This document shows positions 9,693 through 13,945 of a stretch of 64,000 nucleotides of DNA, piece by piece. Source of the DNA: Phycisphaera sp. GTDB lineage: Bacteria; Planctomycetota; Phycisphaerae; Phycisphaerales; UBA1924. The stretch's first letter is position 1. Each line of letters opens with the position of its first letter. The position numbers were made by a program, and so were the translations under genes. The notes beneath the pieces were generated by a model. The model was not told the origin of the DNA and searched no databases. It saw only the letters and a list, made by a program, of their open reading frames with translations. The stretch lies in the NCBI GenBank assembly GCA_025916675.1, contig CP098402.1:3343205-3407204 (forward strand). The letters run 5' to 3'.

Positions 9693-11141
9693 TCATAAGT
9701 AACTCCCCGCCTTCAGCGCCCCCGGTCGATCCAGATTCGTCACCAGGTACCGCAACGCATCCACCGCGTGGTCGGGCCCATCCTTGGCGGGCTCCTCGCT
9801 CATCGGCCGCTGCATGTCGTAGTGGTACCGCTCCAGGCTCTCGATCAGGTGCGGGCAGTCGGGCGAGATGTACAGGGTTGGCTCGCCGGTGGCCGGCCGC
9901 AGGCGGGCGCGCAGCAGGTCGAGGCCGGCCCGGATGGTCGTCCGCCGCGCGCGCACGGTCAGCCCCGCGCGTTGGATCTGCTGGGCATCGCTGAGCCCTG
10001 TTTGCGCGTTGCCCTGCCAGCCGGCGGGGTCGATGCCGATCCACGCCGGCTTGCGACTTTCATTGTCGAGCATCGCGTCGATGTGCTCGCCCAGCAGACA
10101 CCGCGACGCCACTCGCTCGCGCAGGATGTGCAGGACGCCATCGGGCGACAGCGCGCCCCACACGATCACCGTCGGCGAGCGGTAGCCGAAGTCCATGCCC
10201 AGCACCCAGGACCAATCCTCATCGAACGTCGGAGCCGCGCGCACGTGGACGGCCTGGTCGAACTCGGGCAGCACCGCGTCGTCGCTCTTGGGCCGCTCGC
10301 ACCGCATCTCGGCGTCCCACGTGCTGAGCGACACCCGGCCCTTGAGCGAGATCGCGTCGGCGATCGACAGGTGCCCCGGCGTGCGGTCCTTCGGCTTCGC
10401 CGAGCCCCGGCACTCGTTCCACAGCGGGCAGCCCTCGCACTCGTATTCCGGGCCGCAATGGGAGAGCACATCGACCACGCCCCACTTGAACAATCGCCGT
10501 GAGCCCTCGGCCGCCTGCTCCACGACATCACGCATCAGCCCGTGCGCGCGGTGCATGGTGCTCAGGGCCTCGATCGAGCCGCGGATGGTGTAGGTCTTGC
10601 CGTCGTACTGGACTTGTTTGCTCCGCGTGGTGAGCTGGGCCGCCTCCCACACCGCCGGGTCGAACAGCTCGACCTCGTCGCAGCGAAGTTTCTGGATGCG
10701 CGTGCCCCGGACCGACGCCTGGCTCTGGGCGAGCAGCTCCAGCCGCGAGCCGTTGATGAGTTCCAGCTTGCGATCGGTCACGCGGCCCTCGACCAGGTCG
10801 CTGACAGCCGGAGAGCGAATGAGGTGCCGCAGGTGCGCGTGCATGCGCTGGGCCTGCTCGAGCGAGCCGCCCAGGATGCGGACCTCGATGCCCGGCTTGT
10901 ACACAAGATCCAGCAGCGTCGCGACGGCGCCAAGAAAGGTCTTGCCACCACCCCGGTTCGCCCAGACCACGGCATCGATCGCATCATCGCTCGCGTTGCC
11001 CAGCGCCTCGGGCATGTGGTCCGCAAAGAACGCGTGGGCGAGGTATTCCAAGGGCTTGGCGCTCAGTTGCACGTCCAAGGCGGTGCGCACGCACTCGGCG
11101 AGTCCATCGATGGTCGCCGGCCGTGTTGGCAGGGGGGTCAT
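9693..11141 (-). CDS. Phage terminase large subunit-like ATPase/nuclease, 482 aa
   Basis: The protein has the two-domain layout of terminase large subunits, which pump phage DNA into capsids and cut it. The ATPase half has a Walker A-type loop (ANRGGGKTFLGAV, about 61-73) and Walker B (LRCDEVELFD, 152-161). The RNase H-like nuclease half has acidic positions in GMDFGYRSPT (D317), GIDPAG (D371) and PDHAVDALRYLV (D461). Between them is a four-Cys cluster, C-x5-C-x2-C-x5-C at 229-244, probably a metal site. The start overlaps the stop of the GNAT gene in an ATGA, so translation is coupled. No portal, capsid or small terminase gene is visible. It may be a phage remnant or a domesticated DNA-processing enzyme; complete motifs favour activity. 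Confidence 0.85.
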   Translation of the reverse strand: MTPLPTRPATIDGLAECVRTALDVQLSAKPLEYLAHAFFADHMPEALGNASDDAIDAVVWANRGGGKTFLGAVATLLDLVYKPGIEVRILGGSLEQAQRMHAHLRHLIRSPAVSDLVEGRVTDRKLELINGSRLELLAQSQASVRGTRIQKLRCDEVELFDPAVWEAAQLTTRSKQVQYDGKTYTIRGSIEALSTMHRAHGLMRDVVEQAAEGSRRLFKWGVVDVLSHCGPEYECEGCPLWNECRGSAKPKDRTPGHLSIADAISLKGRVSLSTWDAEMRCERPKSDDAVLPEFDQAVHVRAAPTFDEDWSWVLGMDFGYRSPTVIVWGALSPDGVLHILRERVASRCLLGEHIDAMLDNESRKPAWIGIDPAGWQGNAQTGLSDAQQIQRAGLTVRARRTTIRAGLDLLRARLRPATGEPTLYISPDCPHLIESLERYHYDMQRPMSEEPAKDGPDHAVDALRYLVTNLDRPGALKAGSYL

Positions 11142-11812
11142 GATGCCCCCCGATCGTGCACGAGCGCGACGGGCGGGTGCGTGAGTGCGGCGAACGCGCG
11201 GCCCGGGAGGTCGCCGCCGCGCAGCTTGCGCGCGCTCGCCCAGGCACGCAGGCTGGGCGCGATGCTGTCGGGCGGGTGGTGCAGCAGGTCCGCCGGCTCG
11301 AGCCCATGTCGGTCCAAGGCTCGCAGCAACCGGGCGTCGGCCTTACTGGGTGGCAACTCGATCCGCCGCATGCCCGCACGCTCGAAGAAGGGGCACGCGT
11401 GGGCCATGGTGGCCAAGGCCTCCGTGCGCGCGGTTTGGGGATTGTCGAGGTACGCGCGCACGAGGCGGACGGCCAGCCCCCGCCCGCGGTATCGCGGATC
11501 GACGATCACACGCGAGATGACGCGCACGTCGTGATTCAGGCGCAGCGCGTTGGCGCGCTTGTCGGGGGTGTCGTACTCGCCCGGCCACGCGATGGGCCGC
11601 CATCGCCCGTTGAGCGTCGGCATCGAGGCGACCAAGACGCCCACGACTTCGTTGTCATCGACGGCGCGCAGGACGCGGGCGATCGGGCCGGGGCGGCCCG
11701 CGGCGTAGTGGAAGCGGGCCAGCGGCGCGAGGTCGGCCGGCACGCCGGCCTCGATGGTGATGGTGTCGGGATCGGGACTACTGAACCGGCGGGCGAGCGA
11801 GGCGTGTGCCAA
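11138..11812 (-). CDS. GNAT-fold acyltransferase, 224 aa, coupled to ABC ATPase gene
   Basis: The GNAT superfamily transfers acyl groups from acyl-CoA. Motif A, which binds the CoA pyrophosphate, is RVIVDPRYRGRGLAVRLV (101-118) with R-G-R-G-L-A at its centre, followed by ATMAHACPFFERAGM. The frame is open further upstream inside the ABC gene, but similarity begins only near ITIEAGVPADL, so I chose the TTG at 11812, which has GCGGAG about 7 bases upstream. The start overlaps the ABC gene by 35 bases and the stop overlaps the terminase start by 4. An ABC-type ATPase fused or adjacent to such an acyltransferase is the COG2401 arrangement known from phages and archaea. A nucleic-acid target is inference. 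Confidence 0.75.
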   Translation of the reverse strand: MAHASLARRFSSPDPDTITIEAGVPADLAPLARFHYAAGRPGPIARVLRAVDDNEVVGVLVASMPTLNGRWRPIAWPGEYDTPDKRANALRLNHDVRVISRVIVDPRYRGRGLAVRLVRAYLDNPQTARTEALATMAHACPFFERAGMRRIELPPSKADARLLRALDRHGLEPADLLHHPPDSIAPSLRAWASARKLRGGDLPGRAFAALTHPPVALVHDRGAS

Positions 11813-12464
11813 TGGTGTGCTCCGCGGGGGCGCGGGCGATGATGGTGGGCGGCGACGGGCGTTCGCCGGGCGGGGGCAGGGCAATGAGCAGGTCGGGCGC
11901 GAGCGCTTCGAGGGTGTCCTCTTGCGCGCTGCAGGCGATGAGCGTGATGGAGTTGCGACGGCACCAGCGGGCGAGCGCATGGGCGAGCGACTGCGCGGTG
12001 GCGCGGTCGAGGGCGGCGGCGAACTCGTCGACGATCAGGACGCAGCCGGGCGTGCAGCGGTCCATGGCCGCGGCGATGGTGAGGCGCGCGAGCTGGCCGG
12101 TACTCAACGCACCGGCGGGGCGCGGCAGCAGCGCCGCTTCGGCCAGGCCGGCGGCGCTGAGCAGGCCGAGGGCCTGGTCCAAGTCGGCGCCGACCTGTTC
12201 GACCGTCGGGCGGCGGCGTGAGAGGTGGGCGGGCGGTCGGACGACCGGGCGATTGGCGCGCGACAGGTGGCGGCGGAGCCACGTGAGTGCCGTGGTCTTG
12301 CCGCTGCCGCTGGGGCCGGTGAGCAGCGCGACCTGGCCCGGGTCGAGTTGCACCAGAGACCTGGCGGCGGCTCGGGCGGCACGCAGGGCGCTGCGGCGGG
12401 TGGGGTCGGCCGTCGTGGTCGGTAGGGCGAACAGGGCTCGGGCGTGTGCGAGGCGGTCGGTCAC
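11778..12464 (-). CDS. ABC-type ATPase (COG2401-like), 228 aa
   Basis: A soluble ABC-class ATPase: Walker A GPSGSGKTT (50-58), signature-like LSTGQLARLTIA (120-131, replacing LSGGQ), and Walker B with catalytic Glu CVLIVDEFAAALDRATA (141-157). The H-loop position reads CSAQEDTLEAL, with Gln where His is usual. No membrane segments exist and no permease is nearby, so it is not a transporter component. The VDEFxxxLDR wording resembles the ATPase half of phage ABC-acyltransferase proteins. The GTG start at 12464 overlaps the upstream HTH gene stop in a GTGA. Upstream in-frame codons to 13301 are Arg/Pro-rich and rejected. Confidence 0.8.
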   Translation of the reverse strand: MTDRLAHARALFALPTTTADPTRRSALRAARAAARSLVQLDPGQVALLTGPSGSGKTTALTWLRRHLSRANRPVVRPPAHLSRRRPTVEQVGADLDQALGLLSAAGLAEAALLPRPAGALSTGQLARLTIAAAMDRCTPGCVLIVDEFAAALDRATAQSLAHALARWCRRNSITLIACSAQEDTLEALAPDLLIALPPPGERPSPPTIIARAPAEHTIGTRLARPPVQ

Positions 12465-12898
12465 GCCAGGGTCTCCGCCGCGGGGCGCAGGCCGGGGGTC
12501 TGCGTGAGGGCTCGGAACGCGTCGCACTGCTTGCGCACGCTGTGGTAGCTGATGCCCAGGCGCAGGGCGACCTGGCGCATGGGTAATCCCTCGATCGAGG
12601 TGAGACGGGCGACCTGGCGGAGCTGGCGGGGCAGGTCGGGGCTCAGGCCGACGGCGGCATCGAACGACGGGTCGCACACGCGTCGGACCAGGGCCCTGAC
12701 GCGTCGGCGGAGCTGGCGTTCGGGGGTGCCCAGCATGGTGGCGGCCTCGCTGACGGCCATTCCGTGGCGATAGATCGCCACGAGGAGCTGGCGTTCGTCG
12801 GCGGGGAGGTGGTCGGCGGCGTCCAGGACGCGGGTGACCAGGGCCCGGCGGCGCTTGCGGCGCATGTCGAGGGTGGCATCGTCGAGTCGGGTCTGCAT
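12461..12898 (-). CDS. Helix-turn-helix DNA-binding protein, 145 aa
   Basis: The sequence is basic and helical, with two helix-turn-helix-like segments: MAVSEAATMLGTPERQLRRR (near 49-68) and LPMRQVALRLGISYHSVRKQ (near 105-124), the second resembling sigma-70 region 4/LuxR-type recognition helices. This suggests a two-headed DNA binder, for instance a sigma-like regulator or a small-terminase-like DNA-recognition protein. The latter fits its position at the head of the operon leading to a terminase large subunit. Its start at 12898 faces the S24 repressor gene across 183 bases that hold an operator-like dyad. Confidence 0.65.
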   Translation of the reverse strand: MQTRLDDATLDMRRKRRRALVTRVLDAADHLPADERQLLVAIYRHGMAVSEAATMLGTPERQLRRRVRALVRRVCDPSFDAAVGLSPDLPRQLRQVARLTSIEGLPMRQVALRLGISYHSVRKQCDAFRALTQTPGLRPAAETLA

Positions 12899-12955
12899 AG
12901 CTGGGCCTCCGTTTACTGATTACTGGTCGATTCTCTCCTATTGTCGACTGGATTG

Positions 12956-12980
12956 CAAACAATTGCAAGGGTATTGTTTG
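12956..12980. promoter_or_regulatory. Operator-like inverted repeat CAAACAAT-N9-ATTGTTTG
   Basis: A perfect 8-bp dyad (12956-12963 and 12973-12980) lies in the 183-base region between the HTH-ABC-GNAT-terminase operon and the S24 repressor gene, in the most A/T-rich part of the surroundings. Further ATTGT half-sites occur at 12940 and inside ATTGCAAACAAT. The natural reader would be the adjacent repressor, controlling both directions. The binding protein is inferred. Confidence 0.6.
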
Positions 12981-13081
12981 GTATGTCCACCAGATAGCGC
13001 ACCGGCGTGGCGATGCGCGGCGATTTTGACCGCTGGAACCCTGTGAGAGCCTCCGAAGTGGGGAAATCGAGGATGATGACC

Positions 13082-13945
13082 ATGGCAGGCGAGACCCAGG
13101 ATGGCCCGCTCGGGCCGATGGTGTTCGGGGCTCGGGTCCGCGATCGGCGGATGCGACTGGGCCTGAGTTTGCGCGAGGCCGCCGAGCGGGCGGGGTGTAC
13201 GAAGGGGTACCTGTCGCTGCTCGAGCGCAGCAAGCGTGGAGCCCCGACGCCCGGGTTGCTGGCTTCGCTGGAGGGGGCCCTTGAGATGGAGCCCGGTTCA
13301 CTGGCCGCAGCGGCGGCGATGGAGACGACGCCCAAGCGGGTGCGGAAGGAGCTTGAAGAGCGGCGCGAGCAGGCCGAGGCGGGGCGGCAGCTCGCGGCGC
13401 TGTTACGAGGCGCGGGGCCCGGCGGGTTGGATCGCGCGTTCGAGTCTGGCGCTTTGGCGAGGCTGGTGGATCGGATCTCTCCGGCGGACGAAAGATCGGG
13501 CGAGGGGGAGAAGGTCGGGGCGTTGCTGCCTCGGGCGGTGCCGCTGATCAATCTCGTGCCGGCGGGGCAGGCGGCTGAGTTCACGGATCTGGGGTACCCG
13601 GCCAGGGTTGCCGACAGCTACGTGGCGGCGCCCGAGCTCGGCGATCCGGACGCGTTCGCGGCCCGGGTGACGGGCGACAGCATGGAGCCGACGTATGTGG
13701 AGGGCGACGTGGTGATCTTCAGCCCCGGGCGTGAGGTGAAGAGCGGCATGGACTGCTTCGCGCGGCTGATCGAGCCCGACAGCGAGACGACCTTCAAGCG
13801 GGTGTACTTCGAGCGGACGGGTGAGGGCGAGGAGTTCATCCGGTTGCAGCCGTTGAACCCGAGGTATCGGGCCCGGGTGGAGCCCCGGGAGAAGGTGGCG
13901 GGGTTGTATCCGGCGGTGAGTGTGACCCGGAAGGTGGGGGAATAA
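13082..13945 (+). CDS. XRE-HTH / S24 (LexA-like) repressor, 287 aa
   Basis: A phage-type repressor: an XRE helix-turn-helix near 28-49 (LSLREAAERAGCTKGYLSLLE region), a helical linker with Arg/Glu-rich coiled-coil character (80-110), and an S24 peptidase domain. The catalytic pair of self-cleaving repressors is present: Ser200 in VTGDSMEPTYVEGDVVIF and Lys239 in ETTFKRVYF. A potential Ala-Gly cleavage site occurs at 161-162 (NLVPAGQAAEF). It could therefore be cleaved through RecA on DNA damage and release the divergent operon. I chose the third of three closely spaced ATGs because GAGG lies 9 bases before it. Confidence 0.85.
   Translation: MAGETQDGPLGPMVFGARVRDRRMRLGLSLREAAERAGCTKGYLSLLERSKRGAPTPGLLASLEGALEMEPGSLAAAAAMETTPKRVRKELEERREQAEAGRQLAALLRGAGPGGLDRAFESGALARLVDRISPADERSGEGEKVGALLPRAVPLINLVPAGQAAEFTDLGYPARVADSYVAAPELGDPDAFAARVTGDSMEPTYVEGDVVIFSPGREVKSGMDCFARLIEPDSETTFKRVYFERTGEGEEFIRLQPLNPRYRARVEPREKVAGLYPAVSVTRKVGE

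Follow-up and report, generated by a model that had tools for sequence, protein, structure and literature searches.

A divergently repressed DNA-packaging operon in Phycisphaera sp., probably part of a vertically inherited particle resembling gene transfer agents

The stretch of DNA considered here (the window; 64,000 nucleotides of contig CP098402.1 of Phycisphaera sp., part of a 3.6-Mb single-contig genome) harbours a phage-like operon of four minus-strand genes coding for a helix-turn-helix (HTH) protein, an ATP-binding cassette (ABC) ATPase, a GNAT acyltransferase and the large terminase TerL, divergent from a gene for an S24 repressor of the LexA/CI type (Table 1). Successive genes of the operon overlap by 4, 35 and 4 bases, which confirms the layout and coordinates given in a preliminary description of this DNA. 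The GNAT gene starts with a TTG codon, its open frame extending to 11980, and the initial residues of the repressor reading frame find no support in homologues, the ATG codons at residues 23, 24 and 26 (13073-13082) being the likelier starts. The adjacent ABC ATPase and GNAT proteins are relatives of phage ABC-GNAT proteins, with matches in SSU5, Cyrano and nickie, and the HTH protein is a candidate activator or TerS-like DNA binder.

Table 1. Genes and control region of the operon in the window
Feature	Coordinates	Strand	Evidence
S24 (LexA/CI-type) repressor with N-terminal HTH	13007..13945	+	PF00717 Peptidase_S24 4.5e-14; HTH_31 3.9e-9
Divergent control region	12899..13006	no strand	intergenic sequences of 19 loci, by eye
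HTH protein with two sigma-70-region-4-like stretches	12461..12898	-	PF08281 5.9e-13
ABC ATPase of COG2401-type ABC+GNAT pair	11778..12464	-	PF00005 ABC_tran 3.3e-8; AAA_16 1.7e-8; phrog_293 2.5e-15
GNAT acyltransferase of ABC+GNAT pair	11138..11812	-	PF00583 Acetyltransf_1 9.7e-8; phrog_886 1.7e-12
TerL, ATPase and RNase H-like nuclease	9693..11141	-	PF17289 Terminase_6C 2e-6; phrog_2 1.5e-16

With respect to the conservation of this cassette, 20 loci of relatives (20 kb each), chosen for holding TerL, were searched by tblastn at 1e-2, and ABC and GNAT were recovered in all of them, S24 in 18 (not in L041 and L044) and HTH in 16 (not in L044, L046, L047 and L049), with clustering adding an HTH frame in L044, L046 and L047. 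TerL identity ranges from 42 to 92% among these loci and the genes flanking the cassette mostly differ; the cassette is a real unit and not a chance arrangement. In a set of 61 genomes, TerL is present in 50, the window's own genome counted, and GNAT in 47, none of them without TerL. While in the window the genes for GNAT and TerL overlap and no ParB-like or TerS-like gene separates them, such frames are found between the two in the loci of families f4, f5 and f6 and in some of f1, f2, f7, f8 and f9; the small gene at this position in other families has no Pfam match and one PHROG match at 0.078, and its model has a pLDDT of 67.8.

The intactness of the ATPase, acyltransferase and nuclease motifs, already remarked upon in the preliminary description, agrees with the family scans and, for ABC and TerL, with invariant key residues in relatives. 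In the ABC ATPase, the Gly/Lys of the P-loop, the LSxG motif and the Asp-Glu pair are invariant in 18 rows, and in TerL the same is true of Arg63, Gly66, Lys67, Thr68, Cys-Asp-Glu 154-156, Asp317, Asp371, Asp457, His458 and Asp461 in all 40 class-wide rows (38 genomes), with Gly64 varying in two rows and Gly65 in one. The AlphaFold model of TerL (pLDDT 85.5) has large terminases as its best Foldseek matches, namely those of phage D6E (1e-17), T4 (gp17, 5e-16) and HK97 (1e-11); since the global TM-scores are low (0.33-0.40) and the root-mean-square deviations high, these matches support the domain folds alone. The nuclease part of TerL is moreover 26-30% identical to those of HTVC, HMO-2011 and Roseobacter CRP phages.

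An Ala-Gly site together with a Ser and a Lys has an established role in the self-cleavage of LexA and CI. The window's repressor, in which the preliminary description had noted a Ser/Lys pair and an Ala-Gly site, carries them as Ala151-Gly152, Ser190 and Lys229 if residues are counted from base 13112, and all 17 homologues compared have them unchanged; it thus keeps the residues needed for self-cleavage and is, to judge from its sequence, autocleavable. It resembles LexA and CI also in combining an N-terminal HTH with an S24 domain, but differs from them in that its DNA-binding part is of the HTH_31/HTH_3 (XRE) type and that no wider regulon is seen. In the divergent control region, sigma-70-like TTGCAA/GACAAT hexamers were recognised by eye, and an element TACCAAACA-N4-CCTTGCA lies at 12964-12983 on the minus strand. 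The pattern TACCAWACA-N4-CCTTGCA has 14 exact matches in 37 genomes, 12 of them upstream of the cassette on the contig carrying TerL and two on other contigs, and with up to two mismatches 44 matches as compared to 18 for a reversed control pattern. Because 12 of the 14 exact matches sit upstream of the cassette, no wider operator regulon is indicated and this idea was rejected. In several relatives a palindrome GTTCAC-N6-GTGAAC was noticed by eye, which the window's genus shows in a weak form.

None of 14 structural queries matches the window, so that the earlier statement that capsid and portal genes are missing stands for the window; it does not stand for the genome, where genes for a portal, a scaffold-like protein and a capsid as well as four small frames lie about 58–130 kb from the cassette. 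The HK97-type portal (PF04860) and capsid (PF05065) exceed the cut-off in six of the 61 genomes each and in none of the seven genomes of the window's genus, and the empty result in the genus had suggested a system devoid of a capsid, an idea overturned by the SPP1-type portal PF05133 and by the capsid profile. PF05133 is found in 49 of the 61 genomes at 1e-3 and over the cut-off in 46, the window's own genome included, the portal of the particle set matching at 1e-12 in the family scan. The capsid belongs to PF17236 (SU10_MCP, 7e-88), and its profile A6 is found in 50 of the 61 genomes (in G028 and G045 by fragments only); the scaffold-like protein matches PF06810 weakly (1e-3, below the family cut-off). 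The portal loci of relatives mostly show one conserved row of portal, scaffold-like protein and capsid followed by the small proteins c13, c7, c8 and c9. In the window's own genome (G000), the row at about G000:3222440-3226609 has open frames for scaffold, capsid, c13, c7, c8 and c9, the capsid being 90.5% identical to that of G004, and the portal gene is in two parts, the first ending near 3293820 and the rest covering 3226061-3226609.

An integrative element of 67 kb, located outside the window (G000:3226610-3293820; L217, L216, L193, L215, L195), divides the portal gene. It carries an integrase gene close to one of its ends (phrog_1, 8e-15) as well as genes that, from reading frames by eye, resemble those for ArdC, relaxases and coupling proteins, and its two ends have the 11 bases TTCAAGATGTA in common. 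The capsid gene, too, is a site of insertion in other genomes. In L304, L305, L306 and L307 (genomes G023, G008, G406 and G432, respectively), inserts of ~7-11.5 kb interrupt it at about codons 57-65. Those of L305 (family scan) and L306 (likeness by eye) contain a large serine integrase; a major head protein (PF25209) is encoded by those of L304 and L305 (phrog_4523 at 4e-77 in L305), and that of L305 has a primase/helicase-like protein as well; no frame of the inserts matched the TerL profile. These inserts look like capsid-encoding satellites with the capsid gene as attachment site, that of L307 looking different. In L308 (G048), the two parts of the capsid gene lie on opposite strands, as would result from an inversion that had one of its breakpoints within the gene.

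Cassette and particle genes occur together. In the 61 genomes, TerL and capsid are both present in 46, TerL alone in four, capsid alone in four and neither in seven (p 2e-4), and in 298 genomes of the class the corresponding numbers are 123, 26, 7 and 142 (thresholds 1e-40 and 1e-20; p 2e-47), these p values ignoring shared ancestry. All six genomes of family f2 among the 61 are without TerL and capsid, and G406, from the same family in the class sample, has both. The distances of TerL and capsid are correlated as well (Pearson 0.947 over 12 genomes, a value reached by none of 5000 label permutations; when pairs within the window's genus are set aside, the remaining 56 give a Spearman coefficient of 0.56).

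The most direct evidence tying the window's operon to the particle gene set is its occurrence in one locus with the latter in outgroups. In G438 (L310), from another family of the class, a single stretch of about 18 kb carries the S24 repressor and then HTH, ABC, GNAT, TerL, portal, scaffold, capsid, c13, c8, c21, c20 and c22, HTH and ABC being separated by a hydrolase-like frame; among the later genes, c20 matches a tail-collar family weakly (phrog_31611, 7e-6). No integrase or replication genes were recognised by eye in the L310 frames or among the scanned cluster proteins, which cover part of the frames. In G446 (L312), the row from GNAT to c21 lies on one short contig and is cut by the contig end, and in G044 the distance from TerL to the portal is about 6 kb. 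As a further observation, portal and capsid of G300 (L317) lie about 10 kb from TerL.

A tree of 58 TerL rows, which the preliminary description had proposed as a comparison with phage terminases, places the 40 chromosomal rows (38 genomes) on one side of a branch with support 100/99 and none of the 16 viral rows within. Nearest to this clade are L051 and L052, two viral contigs with an HK97-type portal after TerL, and the chromosomal rows L165 and L166 from elsewhere in the phylum fall outside it. The window's genus, family f1 and the order form clades with support of at least 100/99, as do the few rows of f4, f6 and f8, while f9 is not a clade, rows of f115 and f116 nesting inside it. The TerL tree thus largely follows taxonomy and inheritance looks vertical, and the TerL clade, the co-occurrence and the correlation of TerL and capsid distances all point to vertical inheritance rather than sporadic insertion. 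In line with the intact motifs, the description of the operon as domesticated and phage-like is borne out by this distribution and tree. Nine genes compared within the genus have dN/dS values of 0.10-0.56 (pairwise NG86, no likelihood test), and these values and the invariant catalytic residues indicate that the genes of the particle set are kept by purifying selection.

We therefore consider the five genes to be, with good probability, the module for control and DNA packaging in a particle like a gene transfer agent (GTA), whose genes are dispersed, inherited vertically and under an autocleavable repressor, in the planctomycete class that holds Phycisphaerae. Sequence comparison gives good support for their belonging to a set of particle genes that derives from a phage and is passed on vertically; we infer the GTA function by analogy with RcGTA, and particles would be produced and host DNA packaged. 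Planctomycete hosts thus probably make, or made, DNA-carrying particles of their own, which would derive from a phage particle acquired in the distant past and retained, and the shell genes of which have another place in the chromosome. In the proposed sequence of events, DNA damage or a similar stress would activate RecA and the repressor would cut itself, its loss releasing the HTH-ABC-GNAT-TerL operon; the HTH protein or another factor would then switch on the particle genes, and TerL would cut DNA and pump it through the portal into the capsid. The ABC-GNAT pair might modify DNA (or a particle protein), by which the packaged DNA would be marked or protected, and the absence of ParB-like and TerS-like genes between GNAT and TerL would agree with packaging that begins at no particular site.

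GTAs are known from few lineages, such as Alphaproteobacteria, Bartonella, Brachyspira, Desulfovibrio and Methanococcus, and those of the RcGTA type are built from HK97-type proteins. The system described here is like the RcGTA-type GTAs of Alphaproteobacteria in that a phage-derived TerL, portal and capsid have become fixed and vertically inherited in a class, but unlike these it has an SU10-type capsid and an SPP1-type portal, PF05065 and PF04860 not being found in any of the seven genomes of the window's genus, and its packaging gene is flanked by an ABC-GNAT pair and an S24 repressor of its own. A part of PMC7947584 deals with the phage origin of the RcGTA TerL, and mentions a prophage TerL near RcGTA in a genome of Planctomycetia, which is another class. 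No report of a GTA-like system in Phycisphaerae or Planctomycetota was found in the open-access library searched, preprints and most subscription papers being outside the search. With regard to the ABC-GNAT pair, in Pseudomonas phage nickie ParB-ABC-GNAT precedes genes for a DNA-binding protein, for TerL and for portal and capsid, and phage SSU5 has the order ParB-ABC-GNAT, so that both share this pair with the window, whose GNAT is about 28-30% identical to those of the COG2401 modules of phages; in contrast to these modules, the window's cassette is chromosomal, has a divergent S24 repressor and lacks a ParB gene.

Several observations weigh against the interpretation as a class-wide GTA-like particle. 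As the 67-kb element splits the portal gene, the window's own genome may produce no particles unless the element excises, and in the genus of the window no gene was recognised as coding for a tail protein. Where TerL and capsid share a contig, they are not significantly close to each other (p 0.09 for 18 contigs, p 0.10 for nine long contigs), and many rows of the TerL tree come from loci selected because they contain TerL. With the thresholds used, portal and capsid are both missing from G016, G056 (one contig) and G057, which hold the cassette; 26 genomes of the class have TerL without capsid, and G024, G027, G030 and G060 have portal and capsid and no TerL, assembly gaps being possible. Finally, the capsid occurs outside the class and strict confinement to the class does not hold: it passes 1e-40 in 50 of 392 genomes of a phylum sample, 22 of them outside the class, with 47-53% identity in the eight out-of-class capsids checked (families f30, f51, f81, f83 and f91, e.g., L320-L327), and 18 of these 22 genomes also have a TerL match at 1e-20, the TerL being a distant one. 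In G105, an ABC relative lies beside TerL and away from the capsid.

A more far-reaching version, which we regard as unlikely, would have a repressor-switched GTA of independent SU10-type origin throughout Planctomycetota, with the ABC-GNAT pair marking the cargo. It would be parasitised by satellites inserted at about codons 57-65 of the capsid gene, which disrupt this gene, supply a head protein of their own and use TerL and portal of the host, and the excision of the 67-kb element from the portal gene would act as a switch.

Among the readings that compete with a GTA-like particle, it is rather improbable that a domesticated DNA-packaging particle serves another end, such as the lysis of damaged cells, kin killing or interference with infecting phages. 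While the intact cleavage site, TerL and capsid say nothing on the benefit to the host, the set of portal, TerL and capsid argues for a DNA cargo, and nothing here separates such a particle from a GTA.

The preliminary description had favoured a capsid-less DNA modification or anti-phage system, in which the ABC-GNAT pair would mark self DNA, TerL would cut and pump unmarked DNA, and the repressor would make the system inducible. This has some appeal, as a part of PMC7824862 predicts an acyl modification of a DNA base by ABC+GNAT pairs of the COG2401 type, and as GNAT tracks TerL closely (both, TerL only, GNAT only, neither: 47/3/0/11). In PADLOC searches at 0.1, ABC matches mad3 (9e-15) and the repressor matches HTH_VI (7e-8) and capH (3e-7), which are ATPase and HTH likenesses; however, no model matches TerL or GNAT and no complete defence system was obtained. 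A cassette without portal and capsid was indeed seen in G016, G056 and G057, but most genomes with TerL have portal and capsid. Moreover, ABC-GNAT was not found in the stretch fetched around TerL in several families of the class that keep TerL and capsid (L156-L159, L309, L313-L317). With portal, scaffold-like protein and capsid in the same genome, co-occurring with TerL and joined to it in one locus in outgroups, a capsid-less system is not the best reading and has little probability, though the ABC-GNAT pair could still have a DNA-modifying role within the particle system.

The least probable reading is that of an ordinary prophage, named in the preliminary description as the refuting case and perhaps defective, or of prophages that inserted repeatedly: the genes are of phage type, the same pair of TerL and capsid occurs on viral contigs, and the portal is broken in the window's own genome, but the class-wide spread of TerL, its largely taxonomic tree, dN/dS below 0.6, the dispersal of the genes and the sporadic occurrence of the common prophage portal and capsid families speak against it. 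As regards the viral contigs, 17 of 79 found by means of the capsid have this TerL too (below 1e-24, with two identical rows), and no relatives of ABC, GNAT, HTH or ParB were found at 1e-4 in the fetched stretches (up to 10 kb on each side) of the 79. A 39-kb contig filed as viral (L227, IMGVR_UViG_3300031673_016560) carries the row portal-scaffold-capsid-c13-c8-c21-c20 with 59% capsid identity and may instead be a particle locus of a bacterium.

A replication origin near TerL was also considered, as the GC skew of the window changes sign at about 10.7 kb and then stays positive for some 30 kb, and as TerL in L157 and L159 (family f9) is divergent beside a DnaA-like frame (by eye), with no ABC-GNAT in the fetched stretch. 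For the window's own genome this was rejected: DnaA_C matches at 0.70, 1.31 and 2.32 Mb count against an origin at the window, and 20 sampled stretches are without a coherent skew.

If the GTA-like interpretation is true, a class-wide GTA of independent origin, perhaps present in other classes of Planctomycetota as well, would provide a new test case for the keeping of costly gene-moving particles, and the predicted DNA modification by the ABC-GNAT pair would gain a biological setting. The inserts in the capsid and portal genes in turn suggest that such particles have parasites of their own.

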